Part shown: one piece after another, positions 4,058-11,814 of the stretch
Layout: every line of letters starts with the position of its first letter
How positions within the stretch are numbered: the stretch's first letter is position 1
DNA from: a virus
DNA length: 21,509 nt
IMG/VR virus record: IMGVR_UViG_3300021197_001219
Span: 1-21,509 of that record
Strand: one strand, 5' to 3'
Made by a program: the position numbers and the translations under genes
Notes under the pieces: generated by a model
Database searches by the model: none
The model's input: only the letters and a program-made list of their open reading frames with translations
Told to the model about the DNA's origin: nothing

Positions 4058-5584
4058 GTGCCTTCTCATCTTCACTTAGCTTATCGACGTAATGCAAAGG
4101 CTGCTGCAGCAAACCATCGCATACGCAAGACTGATCAAGAAGAACTGTACGAAAAAGCAAGAGAAGACTTTGGTTTCTTTTGTGAGTATGTTGCTGATAA
4201 AGCTCCAGCAGAACACCATAAGTATTGGAACCAGCAGTTGGTTACCAATGAAAGTAGTTCATGCCTAACAAAAATTGCTGGACCCAATATTGACCTATTG
4301 GGGCCGCGTGGATCAGCTAAAAGTACAGTCCTAGGTTTATACACTGCCTGGGCCATTGGTGTACATACCACAGCCAAGAAGCCTCTACAAATTCTTTACC
4401 TCAGTTATACCGTTGATATTGCAAGATCTAAATCAGCCACGATCAAACGGATCATTGAATCTAAAAGATATCAGAATGTATTCCCTACCGTTAAGCTGCT
4501 CAAAAACGTTACTAGCAACGAGTACTGGTCCATCGACCACAAGTTTGCTGGTATTGATACAACTGGTGAAGAACAGTTTACTTTATGCGCCGCTGGTCTT
4601 AAAGGATCGGTGACTTCAAAACGATCTCACCTTGTCATCATTGATGACCCTGTGAAATCTGCTGCAGATATTGGCAACCCAGACATCCGCAAGATGATGC
4701 AGGATAACTGGAATGCAGTGATTGCTCCCACGATGTTTGAAGGCGGCCGTGCGATATGCCTGGGGACACGATTCCGTCATGACGATATCCATGCGACAAC
4801 GTTCTGCCCACAGAACAATTGGATGCAGATCGTCCTATCAGCGATCTTAAATAACGAGGAGACAGGCGAAGAAGAGTCATACTGGCCAGACATGTGGTCA
4901 TTAGATTACCTAAAAGAAAAGAAAAGGCAAGCACCGATTGCGTTCTCTTTTCAGTACATGAATCAGATTGTCAGACAGAACGAACTGTCATTGGCACCTG
5001 AACTACTGGTTAAAGCAGAGATTGCGACAGAATTTGATTGTCTTGGTATTGGCGTTGACTTGTCTGCTGGAATCAAAGAGAAAAATGATTACACAGTAAT
5101 GGTGTTAGGCGGGAAGATTGGTAACAAAATTCATATTATTGACTATAGAAGAATCCGTGTAATGGGTAATCTAGAGAAACTTGATGCAATGAAAGAGCTT
5201 CTTAATGACTGGTCAATCGTTGGCCGTCAAGATGACGGCTTGTATTTCCCCACTTTCTCTACATGTGATATCTGGTCTGAAGCAGTTCAGTATCAAGCAT
5301 CACTAGAAGCAGATTTTAAACGAGTCTGCTTGGAACAAGAAGACTTATACAATCTTATTTGGCATCCAGTCAAAGGATTCCGTGCAGATAAACTTGCACG
5401 TTTCAGAGGTATAATGGGTATGTTTGAAGATCACAAAATCATCTTCAATCGTTACAGAAATTTTACTACGATGTTTGAAGAGCTAACTAATTTTGGTGTT
5501 AGTTCGCACGACGACTGTGTTGATGCATTGGTATGGCTTGTTAACGGTTTGATGAAACGAGGAAAACTGCAACTGGATTATTAA
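4058..5584 (+). CDS. terL: terminase large subunit (TerL)
   Basis: This is the packaging motor: an ATPase that pumps DNA into the procapsid through the portal, and a nuclease that cuts concatemers. Residues 82-89 (GPRGSAKS) are the Walker A loop. Residues 192-197 (LVIIDD) are Walker B with the catalytic acid. CLGTRF at 234-239 matches the coupling motif III. The C-terminal nuclease has the expected acidic residues: Asp334 in GVDLS, Asp404 and the DD at 485-486 within DDCVDA. The length of 508 residues is ordinary for the family. It starts with GTG and has no clear SD. The 13 residues after the start include His-Leu-His and an Arg/Asn/Lys-rich stretch, so a slightly later start is possible. 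The stop overlaps the next start (TAATG). Confidence 0.97.
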   Translation: MPSHLHLAYRRNAKAAAANHRIRKTDQEELYEKAREDFGFFCEYVADKAPAEHHKYWNQQLVTNESSSCLTKIAGPNIDLLGPRGSAKSTVLGLYTAWAIGVHTTAKKPLQILYLSYTVDIARSKSATIKRIIESKRYQNVFPTVKLLKNVTSNEYWSIDHKFAGIDTTGEEQFTLCAAGLKGSVTSKRSHLVIIDDPVKSAADIGNPDIRKMMQDNWNAVIAPTMFEGGRAICLGTRFRHDDIHATTFCPQNNWMQIVLSAILNNEETGEEESYWPDMWSLDYLKEKKRQAPIAFSFQYMNQIVRQNELSLAPELLVKAEIATEFDCLGIGVDLSAGIKEKNDYTVMVLGGKIGNKIHIIDYRRIRVMGNLEKLDAMKELLNDWSIVGRQDDGLYFPTFSTCDIWSEAVQYQASLEADFKRVCLEQEDLYNLIWHPVKGFRADKLARFRGIMGMFEDHKIIFNRYRNFTTMFEELTNFGVSSHDDCVDALVWLVNGLMKRGKLQLDY

Positions 5585-6996: not shown

Positions 6997-7205
6997 TGGC
7001 CGATAAAGCAATTCAATCTGACGGTACAACCAAACGCTACCTTCCCAAGAAAGCATGGGCCTCCCTTTCCAAAGAAGAAAGGGAAGACACTGATCGCAAG
7101 AAACGAGCAGGATCCAGGGAAGGTAAACAATTCGTTGGGAACACAGAGAAGGCAAAGAAAGCTGGTAAAGCTGCTAGGATGTATAAAAGTAAGGCTGGTA
7201 AATAA
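6996..7205 (+). CDS. Lys-rich small basic protein (69 aa), second half of a DUF5872-like pair
   Basis: The start at 6996 (ATG in TAATG) is preferred over the in-frame TTG at 6990. The protein has 69 residues. Residues 11-21 (TKRYLPKKAWA), a Leu-Ser-Lys-Glu-Glu stretch, and Lys-Gln-Phe-Val-x-Asn-Thr-Glu at about 46-53 match what I recall of the C-terminal part of the DUF5872-type family. The tail has the Lys-Lys-Ala-Gly-Lys-Ala-Ala-Arg motif shared with the 51- and 94-residue proteins. Its stop overlaps the portal start (TAATG), so its translation is coupled to the portal. The function is unknown; a basic virion-associated or DNA-binding role is inferred from charge. Confidence 0.68.
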   Translation: MADKAIQSDGTTKRYLPKKAWASLSKEEREDTDRKKRAGSREGKQFVGNTEKAKKAGKAARMYKSKAGK

Positions 7206-9586
7206 TGGCCGGAACGAGCGCCCGTCTAAAAGAAATCGTTAACTCATACATCGAAAGAGATGGTAATGAGTACGTTGACACGGGTATTGTCGCAGGTCAT
7301 ATCGCTCAGATGAAACTCTTTGGCATTCGCCAAGGGGTTGAGTTTTTTCCTTCTCAGGATAACTTTGGTAATCAGAGAAAAGATTTTATCGATAAAGTAA
7401 TTAAATACAACAAATTAGATACCAGGCTTGATTCAATATGGGATTACTTTCTTTGTGATGGAAAAGGGCTTTTCTACATCCGACCTACTAAAAATAATTA
7501 TCGTCTCTATTATTTCCGTAGCCATGAGTATCGCTCTTATTACAACGTAGATGGTGAGCTAGAAGAAGTCGTAATCATCTACAGCTATAAAGTCAAGACT
7601 GGTAAAGGAGGAATATACCAAGACATTGGGTTGTCTGGAATGAGTGGTGCAACCGATCATGAGAACCCTGGACAGAAACGTTATATCCGCCTATCAATCA
7701 AACCTGATGTTATCGAAGAAACTCACTCAGAAGGTGAGATTTCATTTGACAATGTCAACATGATGACCCCTGGCAAAACCCAGAAATTTGCCAATGAGCT
7801 TTTATATATCCCTTGCGTTGAGATCTTCAACAACCCTAAGGGCTTCTCCATGGAGGGCAGTGGAGAATTTGATCAACTAGCTAATCACATCATTACGCAT
7901 GATGAGTTAGTTCGCAACATGAAGAAGAACTTGCAGTTCTTTGGTAATCCTACGTTACTTTCTTCCCGTCCCAAGACGGATCTGATGGAACCAGGGGGGA
8001 CAGGGGATGGATCAGCTCAACGTCCTTCTATTGCTGCCAACTCAGGGTTCAATAGTATGTCGCCAATGTCGCGATCTACCTTTAAACAGGATCCTATTCA
8101 ACGTGGTGTTGATGGACAGCTTCGTGTTCCAAGGGTCATTGCAAACCTGGAACCTAATGACCGAGTTGGTTATATTGTTCCTGATGCAATTTCAGGTGAC
8201 CAAAATGCATTTGTACGGCAATACAGAGAAGAGATTCGTACTGCACTTGGAGGTGTAGATGAACTTTCAATCTCCGCAGGTGTTACTGCTACCGAATATA
8301 AAAGTTTGTTTGGTCGTGTTGCGGCCACCAGTAAAAAGAAAGCGAATTCGATTTATACGCATGGGCTCTGCCGATGCATGGAATTAATCATCTTTCAAGA
8401 GGAACAACTCTTTAGAGATACCTTGGCAGCAGCCGCAAAATTTGAAAAGCCAGTGACTCCTCAACCAGGAGCTGGTCCAGAAGAAATGCAGTTTTATCGT
8501 GAGGCGATGGATGAATATGACCAACGAGTAAATCAACTTATGATGGCATGCGTTAAAGCACAAATGATTCCACCTGGTGTTAGGGGACTAATACCAGATG
8601 GAGACATCACAATGCTTTGGCGTTGGCTTGGGCCGGTCTACGAAGAATCGACTCAAGATATCCTGAACAATTCAATTGTTGTAAGAAACTTGCAAGAATT
8701 GGGTGTTGATAGCATAGAAGCACTGAAATATCTTTTCCCTTCAAAAACAGAAGAGGAAAGAGCGGAGATGCTTTCAGGATTTCCGTTCAGGATGGTCAAC
8801 GAGTTACAAGGTGCTTACAACCAATTTTCTCGTTTGATTGGGGGAATGATGCAGACCCCTCATCCACAATCTCCAGATTTGCCTATGGCAGCTGACCCGA
8901 GATTGGACCTTACTCCATATCTGTATCGAACACTAGAAGCATTACAAAAGGAGATGAGTTATGCAGGACGCTTCCGTCCAATCGATCCCACAGATGAGCC
9001 AGCCATCCGTGGCCCCGAGCAGTTACGTGGCGGCAGCACCGGCAGCTCCGGTAGCGGCTCCTCAGGCAGCCCCGGCTCAGGTGGGAACGTACTTCCCCCA
9101 GGCGGTGCCCCAGGCGGCTCCAGCCTCGACTACCAGTTACCAATCAAACCCGTCAGCATTCGTCCCCCCTTCCCAGGGAATGGCGGATCAGGGGAACCCA
9201 TGGGAATCGGCCTTCAACAAGGTGGTGAACCTACTGGGCAGTCCGGTGCAATCCCCGTTCCAGGGAGCACCATCACAGGCCCCGGTTCAGACTCCGGGTC
9301 AGTATACCCCGGCCAATTGGGGTCAAGCAACATCGACCCAACCCGACGCATCAACGAGCTGGGCTCAGCAGACCTCGCAAACAAGCCCGACCTCATACAG
9401 CAGCTCTTCCCAAACTTCATCGATCAACTCCTTAGCCGACGTGGCGGATCTCCTTCAGTGGAGTCCGGAGAGTCAGATGGTGGTGGCGAACTACGGGACG
9501 GAAGCGCCAGCGATTCTAAACCAGTACGCACTAAACCTGGAAGGAATGCTGGACAGCGCGGTCGCGTGGGGAAACGAGGCAAGTAA
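7205..9586 (+). CDS. portal protein with long disordered C-terminal extension
   Basis: This would be the dodecameric ring at the special vertex, docking TerL and later the neck. Its position between TerL and the scaffold/capsid genes, its 793 residues and its large mixed alpha/beta core (about residues 1-585: charged N-terminal helix, Tyr-rich beta region at 80-130, long helices at 420-590) fit the large podovirus-type portals. The assignment rests on position and architecture rather than one motif. From residue about 586 the sequence becomes Gly/Ser/Pro-rich and disordered, ending in an Arg/Lys/Gly tail. These last 208 codons share their DNA with the scaffold-like gene starting at 8961 in the +1 frame. 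Bases 9000-9560 are visibly G+C-richer than the flanks. It is translated from a TAATG overlap. Confidence 0.85.
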   Translation: MAGTSARLKEIVNSYIERDGNEYVDTGIVAGHIAQMKLFGIRQGVEFFPSQDNFGNQRKDFIDKVIKYNKLDTRLDSIWDYFLCDGKGLFYIRPTKNNYRLYYFRSHEYRSYYNVDGELEEVVIIYSYKVKTGKGGIYQDIGLSGMSGATDHENPGQKRYIRLSIKPDVIEETHSEGEISFDNVNMMTPGKTQKFANELLYIPCVEIFNNPKGFSMEGSGEFDQLANHIITHDELVRNMKKNLQFFGNPTLLSSRPKTDLMEPGGTGDGSAQRPSIAANSGFNSMSPMSRSTFKQDPIQRGVDGQLRVPRVIANLEPNDRVGYIVPDAISGDQNAFVRQYREEIRTALGGVDELSISAGVTATEYKSLFGRVAATSKKKANSIYTHGLCRCMELIIFQEEQLFRDTLAAAAKFEKPVTPQPGAGPEEMQFYREAMDEYDQRVNQLMMACVKAQMIPPGVRGLIPDGDITMLWRWLGPVYEESTQDILNNSIVVRNLQELGVDSIEALKYLFPSKTEEERAEMLSGFPFRMVNELQGAYNQFSRLIGGMMQTPHPQSPDLPMAADPRLDLTPYLYRTLEALQKEMSYAGRFRPIDPTDEPAIRGPEQLRGGSTGSSGSGSSGSPGSGGNVLPPGGAPGGSSLDYQLPIKPVSIRPPFPGNGGSGEPMGIGLQQGGEPTGQSGAIPVPGSTITGPGSDSGSVYPGQLGSSNIDPTRRINELGSADLANKPDLIQQLFPNFIDQLLSRRGGSPSVESGESDGGGELRDGSASDSKPVRTKPGRNAGQRGRVGKRGK

Positions 9587-9959
9587 TACCCTGATGGGTT
9601 ATGCCAACTTCTCCGTGAACGAGCATCGCGAGAACCTGGCTTACAACGAAATTCTTACTAATCCTGACATCTTGTCAGATTACACCTTGAATTTCTTTGG
9701 TCCTCAAGGTCCATATCCTGTCTACGAATCTGAAGCAGAATTAGCTACCCCTGGTTATCCAACTCAGCAGGTATCTAATGAGCAAATGATTCCTGGCGCA
9801 AACTTCCCTGCACCTCCACAGGCTGCTGCTCCTCAAGCTCCCCAAGATTTCTGGGGTTCTTTCAAGCAACAGATGGATCAAGATCCTACGCAAGCATGGC
9901 GTGTGATCAACCAGGCTTCACCTCAAGTGATGGCTAACAAACTCTTCGTGATGGAGTGA
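8961..9959 (+). CDS. scaffold-like protein overlapping the portal 3' end
   Basis: The gene starts inside the portal gene with a strong RBS: AAAGGAG at 8947-8953, seven bases before ATG 8961. That is one of the best sites in the window. It has 332 residues. Residues 1-75 are Ala/Pro/Gln-rich and disordered. Residues 77-92 form a short helix (NPWESAFNKVVNLL). Residues 93-155 are Ser/Gln/Thr/Pro-rich. Residues 156-215 are a helical region with normal composition (Leu-Ala-Asp-Val-Ala-Asp-Leu-Leu...), and the C-terminus is another Pro/Ala linker ending in a helix. Position between portal and major capsid, a disordered body and terminal helices are typical of capsid scaffolding proteins. The 374 bases past the portal stop are unshared and clearly coding. 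Scaffold is an inference; no family name is certain. Confidence 0.8.
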   Translation: MQDASVQSIPQMSQPSVAPSSYVAAAPAAPVAAPQAAPAQVGTYFPQAVPQAAPASTTSYQSNPSAFVPPSQGMADQGNPWESAFNKVVNLLGSPVQSPFQGAPSQAPVQTPGQYTPANWGQATSTQPDASTSWAQQTSQTSPTSYSSSSQTSSINSLADVADLLQWSPESQMVVANYGTEAPAILNQYALNLEGMLDSAVAWGNEASNTLMGYANFSVNEHRENLAYNEILTNPDILSDYTLNFFGPQGPYPVYESEAELATPGYPTQQVSNEQMIPGANFPAPPQAAAPQAPQDFWGSFKQQMDQDPTQAWRVINQASPQVMANKLFVME

Positions 9960-9963
9960 TCCA

Positions 9964-10539
9964 ATGCGTAACGCTTTGAAATATGGTATTCCTGCTGCTG
10001 CCGGTCTCGGCGCTGCAGGTCTTGTTGCCAGTCAAGGCGGGAATCCTGTTGAAGCCGGTGGCGCTGCTGTTGCTGCTGGCTTAGGGGGTGCTGCTGGTTT
10101 AGTAGCCGCCCGTCAACTTGCTGGCAAATACAATCCGCAACTCATCCAACGAGTTAGCGGAGCACTTAACAGTGCCGGTAATGCAGTGGGCGATTATGCT
10201 CGCGAACTTCCGGACGACAGCATCGTTCGCAAGCGTGGTGCTGGCATGGCAGCTGATGCTGTTTCTGCAGTTGATAACCGTCTTATGGGTATTCCTGGTG
10301 AACGGTCTGGCGCAATGCCTTTCCCCACTCAAGGAGTACAACGTAATGTCGGCAAGGCTGCCGCTGCTGGTTTAGTTCCAGCTTCTGCTGCTACCGCTGC
10401 CCTTGGTGGTGTTGCCGCAGGACAAGCAGTTGGTGCTGTTGGCCAGATGATTGGTATTGATCCAGAACTACCTGGTTCCAGCAATACAGTCAATTCCCGA
10501 TTAAACATGCAAGGTATGAACTACCTTCCGATGTATTGA
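9964..10539 (+). CDS. Ala/Gly-rich hydrophobic virion-type protein (191 aa)
   Basis: The start at 9964 is supported by GGAG at 9953-9956 with seven-base spacing. Residues 8-50 contain two Ala/Gly-rich hydrophobic stretches linked by a Gly-Gly-Asn-Pro turn, and residues 115-150 contain another. Glycine-zipper spacing (Gly-x-x-x-Gly) occurs repeatedly. The middle (50-110) is charged and normal. This could insert into membranes like a DNA-delivery or internal core protein, or be packed in the virion. It lies between the scaffold-like gene and the capsid gene and is followed by a terminator-like hairpin, so it probably ends the upstream transcription unit. No family is recognised. Confidence 0.75.
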   Translation: MRNALKYGIPAAAGLGAAGLVASQGGNPVEAGGAAVAAGLGGAAGLVAARQLAGKYNPQLIQRVSGALNSAGNAVGDYARELPDDSIVRKRGAGMAADAVSAVDNRLMGIPGERSGAMPFPTQGVQRNVGKAAAAGLVPASAATAALGGVAAGQAVGAVGQMIGIDPELPGSSNTVNSRLNMQGMNYLPMY

Positions 10540-10650: not shown

Positions 10651-11814
10651 GTGTTTTTAGATAACGACTTTCCTAAGATTTTAGGTGCGGAACTATACCG
10701 TCCGCATCCTGCTTATGTCTGTGAAATGGCTGTTGAGCCTGTGGTCGTCCACGACTTCACCTCTCAGCCTGGCCAGACCGTGCAGCTGGACCGCTATAAG
10801 TTCTGGGGAACTCCTGGTACTAAGGATTCACGCGAGCGCATTGCTGACCAGACCATTGGTACAGCTAACAGCCGTAACATCACGAAGGAGAAAGTCCTCG
10901 TGGTGCTTAAGGAATACACCGGCCCTGCGGACCCAGGTGATCCTACCCAGCCTTCAACCTTTAAGATTGCTCGTGAGACTCTGGTCACCGCGCAGCGTTT
11001 GCTGCTCGACACTGGCAACCTGAACATGTTCCACCAGTCCATCGGTAGCTTGACGCTGCTCGATGACTATCGTCGTTGGCGTGACCGCGTCTTCATTGAC
11101 GAACTTGCAAAAGCAGAAGCACAAGGTCAAGCTTCTAGCACCCAAGGTGGTTACTACTTCGCTGGTGACAAGGTCAAGGATTCAACTGGCCGTATTTCTT
11201 ATACAGCTGCTGAGTACACTGCACAAGTCCAACAGTTCTCTGTTCGTACCGACCTTCTCGAAGTTGTAAAAGATCTTCGTAAGCGTAACGTACCTACCTT
11301 TGCTGATGGTCTGTATCGCTGTATTTGCGATCCTACCTTCATGATGCACTTGCGTCGTGACGAAGACTTCCGTGAGATTGCTCGCTACGCAGGCAATCCT
11401 GGACAAGGCATGTACATGGCTAACCCCATGATGCCTAACAACTCCAGCTTCTACATGGGTCCACAGGCTGGCCAAGGTTACTTCCTGGCTGGTGAACCTG
11501 TGATGCCTACTGGCGTTCAGTTTGAAGGCGTTAAGTTCTTCGAGTCAACCAACTTCCCCAACAAGTCAGTACAGACATCATTCGATGCTGGTGGTAACTA
11601 CGCTGCTGAAGAAGTTGCACAAGGTTACTTCTTCGGTCCTCAGTCTGTTGGCGTCGGTATTGGCGGTCCTAACGCACAAGTACTCATCAACAACAATGAT
11701 GACTTCTCGCGCTTCATCATTCTTATTTGGCAGCTGTATGCTGGTTTCGAGGTCTTGAACAAAGACTTCATCACAACTGCATTCAGCTACCTCTCCGATG
11801 ACGGCGTGGTCTGA
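10651..11814 (+). CDS. major capsid protein (N4-gp56-like, HK97 fold)
   Basis: This is the main shell protein of the head. It has 387 residues with a GTG start, and GGAGG sits ten bases upstream. The segment around residues 221-248 (Tyr-Arg-Cys-Ile-Cys-Asp-Pro-Thr-Phe, then Leu-Arg-Arg-Asp-Glu-Asp-Phe-Arg-Glu) resembles the conserved part of the N4-gp56 family of major capsid proteins. The early Gly-x-Thr-Val-Gln-Leu-Asp-Arg-Tyr strand fits the N-arm/P-domain entry. Codons favour C-ending forms compared with neighbouring genes, consistent with high expression. It has its own leader after a terminator-like hairpin. The family call is from remembered motifs plus position after portal and scaffold; a capsid role is very likely in any case. 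Confidence 0.88.
   Translation: MFLDNDFPKILGAELYRPHPAYVCEMAVEPVVVHDFTSQPGQTVQLDRYKFWGTPGTKDSRERIADQTIGTANSRNITKEKVLVVLKEYTGPADPGDPTQPSTFKIARETLVTAQRLLLDTGNLNMFHQSIGSLTLLDDYRRWRDRVFIDELAKAEAQGQASSTQGGYYFAGDKVKDSTGRISYTAAEYTAQVQQFSVRTDLLEVVKDLRKRNVPTFADGLYRCICDPTFMMHLRRDEDFREIARYAGNPGQGMYMANPMMPNNSSFYMGPQAGQGYFLAGEPVMPTGVQFEGVKFFESTNFPNKSVQTSFDAGGNYAAEEVAQGYFFGPQSVGVGIGGPNAQVLINNNDDFSRFIILIWQLYAGFEVLNKDFITTAFSYLSDDGVV

Follow-up and report, generated by a model that had tools for sequence, protein, structure and literature searches.

Organization of the head genes

The window analyzed in this work (the whole stretch of 21,509 nucleotides of IMG/VR virus record IMGVR_UViG_3300021197_001219) harbors a head module with the gene order of tailed phages, that is, terminase, portal, an inner gene starting within the portal gene, a gene coding for 191 amino acids, and the major capsid protein (Table 1). 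In agreement with the initial annotation, the open reading frame (ORF) coordinates place the portal and the inner gene in different frames with an overlap of 626 nt, corresponding to 208 extra portal residues, and the start context of the inner gene is also as described there: AAAAGGAG ends at 8953, with a spacing of seven bases to the ATG at 8961. A TGA in frame with the inner gene (8955-8957) directly precedes this ATG, so that 8961 is the first possible start.

Table 1. Coordinates of the genes and segments of the head module in the window.
Feature	Position	Strand	Remarks
Terminase large subunit	4058..5584	+	phrog_38, E 7.8e-77; Pfam Terminase_6C
Portal ORF	7205..9586	+	793 aa; core = residues 1-585 (7205-8959)
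Inner-gene start codon with its ribosome-binding site (AAAAGGAG)	8946..8963	+	Within portal codons Q581-Y586
Inner gene, probable scaffolding protein	8961..9959	+	332-aa ORF; +1 frame relative to portal
Dual-coded segment, purifying selection on both frames	8961..9443	+
Short conserved motifs of the portal arm	9134..9436	+	Conservation over 186 loci
Portal frame without sequence conservation, stops avoided	9444..9515	+
Portal-frame run-out; stop site differs between relatives	9516..9586	+
Major capsid protein	10651..11814	+	phrog_1357 "major head protein", E 1.7e-16

Among cultured phages, Synechococcus phage S-EIV1 (KJ410740) is the nearest relative; it possesses the same genes and the same overlap (554 nt), the portal core and the inner protein being 76% and 66% identical, respectively. 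In its annotation only the last 133 of the 325 residues of the inner gene are present, and the overlap is not annotated.

As regards the neighboring genes, the Ala/Gly-rich 191-aa gene of the window (9964-10539) gave no tblastn match in S-EIV1, which has at this position a 158-aa protein with Gly/Ala-rich stretches; judging from the sequences, this gene may be either fast-evolving or replaced. The capsid protein of the window matches KJ410740 at 60859-62007 (+) with 85.5% identity, where the record lists a minus-strand coding sequence (60784-61545) and, on the plus strand, only a C-terminal one (region 60784-62010; 7227-8453 in our locus L001); on this comparison, the major capsid gene of S-EIV1 appears to be misannotated. 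In the S-EIV1 terminase (KJ410740 54080-56620; L001 523-3063), some 333 residues form an intein-like insert (residues 202-526 match Pfam Intein_splicing, E 1.4e-11), which is absent from the window terminase.

The portal protein and its C-terminal arm

The assignment of the outer gene as a portal gene was borne out by profile matches, and a fold comparison based on a low-confidence model is compatible with it. A match to phrog_20475 (E 1.9e-256), annotated as "virion structural protein, head and packaging", spans residues 5-738 of the portal ORF, and the portal arm is thus part of the proteins of this family. Of 31 homologues, 29 matched the "portal protein" family phrog_64 (best E 6.4e-5), and phrog_533 and phrog_104 were matched more weakly. 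All ten Foldseek matches with E <= 0.001 were phage or SaPI portal or portal-tail structures, with low TM-scores and a model pLDDT of 40. The gene sits between the terminase and the capsid genes.

As the initial annotation had it, the residues added to the portal are rich in Gly, Ser, and Pro and predicted to be disordered; they embed a series of short motifs (QLPI.P.S.RPPiP, GiGvQQggep, IPvPGST, vypGqL, and GSaDL..qPg.laQLFPN). These finish near 9436 with QLFPN and a short predicted helix, and LFPN itself was found in 184 of the 186 loci compared.

Conservation of the overlap

These 186 loci, retrieved by five collection scans and completed with the S-EIV1 record, are distinct and complete, have an unbroken portal frame, and represent one fairly compact family. 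In one of the scans, loci were picked up by an unsorted DNA pattern of the portal core and not by similarity to the window; the conservation of the overlap is therefore independent of ranking by closeness. The +1 overlap is present in all of them, with a length of 497-677 nt (median 599), and portal stops early in the overlap were looked for and not found. The position of the inner start within the portal gene is also invariant, the ATG falling at an identical portal codon in 186/186 loci and being always preceded by GGAG, even though GAG accounts for only 33% of the Glu codons of the portal cores. The 15 nt upstream of the ATG read AAAAGGAGATGAG(T/C)T in 183 loci, AACAGGAGATGAGTT in two, and AAAAGGAGATGTCTT in one.

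Both frames being open for about 600 nt in all relatives, the overlap might be regarded as the footprint of a programmed frameshift yielding a fusion of the portal core with the inner protein. However, a stop directly precedes the inner ATG in the +1 frame (ATGAG context) in 185/186 loci, and the invariant ribosome-binding site accounts for expression without any shift; we consider such a fusion very improbable.

The exception to this picture is locus L147, whose portal gene is split into many frames along its whole length and whose inner gene also has frame breaks; this is probably sequencing error in an error-rich contig. No homologue lacking the overlap was found among annotated phages (where S-EIV1 was the only match), prokaryote genomes, or viral contigs, the latter scanned from two window seeds, the portal-core DNA pattern, and the divergent seed L208; the similarity scans of viral contigs comprised the best 80 loci each, so that a distant branch could be missed. 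In the prokaryote genomes two loci were found, of which one is complete and the other partial; both are probably on viral contigs inside metagenome-assembled genomes (MAGs). Locus L139, with both the portal and the inner gene, comes from a MAG; its 11.4-kb contig (RFNU01000069.1) is probably that of a phage that ended up in a bacterial bin. The family is part of the S-EIV1 lineage of cyanophages, a widespread lineage known from one cultured phage and from environmental contigs numbering several hundred.

Selection on the two reading frames

The selective pressure on each frame was estimated with a script of our own, similar to OLGenie, in which each pairwise difference is classed by its effect in each frame; the main set consisted of 84 independent pairs, with no sequence shared between pairs. 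Over 8961-9443, omega was 0.29 [0.18-0.43] for the portal frame and 0.18 [0.12-0.25] for the inner gene. Two controls, with values of 1.92 for the portal frame extended through 9600-9956, where only the inner gene is encoded, and 2.05 for the third frame, unused within the overlap, indicate that the baseline of an unselected frame lies here near 2 and not 1. In the last part of this segment (9282-9443) the constraint is, by point estimate, stronger on the portal frame (0.19) than on the inner gene (0.28). A first, less strict set of pairs (p-distance 0.01-0.15) agrees with the 84 independent ones: changes silent in the inner gene and altering the portal dropped from 0.546 outside the overlap to 0.162 inside it, while doubly silent changes were similar (0.55 and 0.58, respectively). 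Hence, by the two-frame comparison of sequences, both proteins are under purifying selection over 8961-9443, that is, this segment is dual-coding, and the loss of selection on one frame that might have undermined the initial annotation was not observed.

These data bear directly on the idea that function in the overlap is confined to the inner gene, the portal tail being a passive read-through left by overprinting after the loss of an older portal stop, which the initial annotation had put forward as one option. The disordered, low-complexity composition of the tail would suit this idea, as would the far end of the portal frame described below. Over 8961-9443, however, it is refuted by the strong conservation of the portal frame and by the suppression of portal-altering changes, and the retention of LFPN likewise argues against it.

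Stop codons and the far end of the portal frame

The absence of portal-frame stops was compared with a null in which the inner protein was kept fixed and synonymous codons were drawn from the usage of neighboring coding DNA. The recoded overlap of the window contained on average 10.5 portal-frame stops, and none of 1000 recoded sequences was stop-free, against an observed number of zero; the open portal frame across the overlap is not due to chance. When codons were shuffled only within the overlap, the expected number of stops was lower (4.8), the overlap itself already having a high G+C content (0.60 vs. 0.43 in the portal core, means of 67 loci). Over 8961-9443, in 94 representatives, none of 1565 codons in a stop-risk context ends in T.

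Beyond 9443 the sequence of the portal frame is unconstrained, with an omega of 2.36 [1.39-4.56] in 9444-9515 and 1.35 in 9516-9586. Nevertheless, in 9444-9515 a third-position T precedes a stop-completing pair in just 4 of 405 codons, vs. 328 of 1386 in safe contexts; stop avoidance thus reaches about 24 codons past 9443, fading and then disappearing in 9516-9586, where stops become common. The portal extends 17-74 residues after LFPN (median 56, 186 loci), with at least 35 residues in 93% of the loci vs. an expected 2.8%, and one group of loci has its portal stop 17 residues past the motif. Across relatives, the portal frame of the same 9444-9515 stretch contains hardly any C, H, W, or Y. 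A basic DNA-binding tail from 9444 onwards was also considered and is not supported, since the net charge (0.056) is not higher than that of the recoded null (0.099).

The passive extension can therefore be retained in part for the last 140 bases or so, where the sequence is free to vary and the stop position is variable, although stops are avoided even there. As an account of the whole overlap we consider it hardly tenable, given also the zero stops against the expected 10.5.

It is possible that the stop-free 9444-9515 stretch reflects either a flexible spacer or ribosomes having to read on. The latter idea can be extended to the entire open portal frame, which would then serve translation, either by preventing termination inside the inner gene or by a regulatory passage of ribosomes over the inner start. 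The avoidance of stops in an unconserved sequence and the excess of loci with long extensions after LFPN fit this scenario; on the other hand, it leaves the amino-acid conservation over 8961-9443 unexplained, and the stop sites vary widely, down to the group ending 17 residues after LFPN. On balance it seems quite improbable to us.

Codon usage did not separate an older from a younger frame, the portal frame being the more typical one in 48 of the 94 representatives; in the window alone, it leans to the portal frame.

The inner protein

The N-terminal half of the inner protein is predicted to be disordered and is rich in Ala, Gln, Ser, and Pro, and the C-terminal half is predicted to be helical, with helices over 182-246 (including a long one at 182-233) and C-terminal ones over 297-331. 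The protein is acidic (24 D+E vs. 5 K+R in the window), and its gene lies between the portal and the major capsid genes, separated from the latter by one gene. Scaffolding proteins typically show such a position, an acidic character, a disordered N-terminus, and helices at the C-terminus. Position, acidity, and predicted layout thus suggest that the inner protein is a scaffold, by resemblance rather than by demonstration. No match was found among PHROG, Pfam, PDB sequences, or PDB folds, and the sole BFVD match was A0A0C4K645, a viral protein of 133 aa, exactly as long as the truncated S-EIV1 annotation. Since scaffolds diverge quickly, the missing family or fold match is weak evidence against this assignment.

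The dual coding might also be real and the inner protein a different head protein (internal, ejection, or decoration), the scaffold being, for example, the product of the 191-aa gene or part of the capsid protein. The lack of family and fold matches leaves room for this alternative, as does the presence of another unassigned gene between the inner and the capsid genes. Against it stand the scaffold-typical traits listed above, and the 191-aa gene, which gave no tblastn match in S-EIV1, is less convincing as the carrier of a core function. We regard this alternative as conceivable, if doubtful.

Discussion

The whole body of data suggests, in our opinion with reasonable though far from full probability, that the S-EIV1 lineage harbors a same-strand dual-coding pair formed by a portal arm and the disordered N-terminal half of a probable scaffold, with the arm acting inside the head. 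In this model, the portal gene carries in frame 0 a C-terminal extension of some 160 residues bearing the short conserved motifs, and the +1 frame of the same DNA encodes the disordered N-terminal half of the following gene for head assembly. The product of this gene is most likely the scaffold, and its translation would start from the strong ribosome-binding site inside the portal gene. Internal initiation might allow the scaffold to be made in excess over the 12-subunit portal. The arm may project from the portal crown into the head, and its motifs might dock the scaffold or internal head proteins during procapsid assembly.

The placement of the arm is suggested by analogy with P22. According to two papers (PMC13386823, PMC12005531), portal and scaffold nucleate P22 procapsids together, the scaffold binds the portal wing and crown, and the crown and barrel are sites for ejection proteins; by analogy, a C-terminal portal arm could plausibly lie inside the head. 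The P22 portal also resembles the one described here in having an extra C-terminal domain after the crown, disordered in the procapsid; the P22 barrel, however, adopts a helical form in the virion and is not described there as dual-coded, whereas the arm described here is Gly/Ser/Pro-rich with short motifs (PMC12005531, PMC13386823). The predicted disorder of both arms encoded by the overlap is in line with the finding that disorder is common in overlapping genes, whose origin by overprinting has been reviewed (PMC8227390).

As regards other systems, the initial annotation had drawn a parallel with the nested scaffold of lambda, in which a scaffolding gene likewise starts within an upstream head gene. 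This parallel fits poorly, since Nu3 lies within C in the reading frame of the latter and shares one sequence with it, whereas in 186/186 loci the inner gene is in the +1 frame, the two sequences are unrelated, and the host gene encodes a portal and not a protease. Another likeness is found in PhiX174, whose genes B, E, and K are overprinted Microviridae genes, with same-strand, out-of-frame overlaps; B, an internal scaffolding protein, overlaps gene A. PhiX174, however, is a small ssDNA phage whose genome is tightly size-limited, whereas this is a tailed dsDNA lineage with genomes near 80 kb. A literature search, with most subscription journals outside its reach, found no published out-of-frame overlap between portal and scaffold genes.

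A more specific version of the dual-coding model, which we consider unlikely, is that the two arms encoded by the same DNA bind each other, the scaffold being recruited to the portal arm by its own N-terminal arm. If this were true, a single dual-coded stretch would lock the contact that nucleates the procapsid, and the two partners could evolve only together.

A systematic annotation gap also emerges, the inner gene being without a PHROG and cut to 133 residues in the one cultured relative. A long same-strand, out-of-frame overlap of two structural genes is unusual for tailed phages, in which genome size is not thought to force such an arrangement. Being fixed across the lineage, this overlap makes it possible to test directly which constraints dual coding imposes on two disordered arms.
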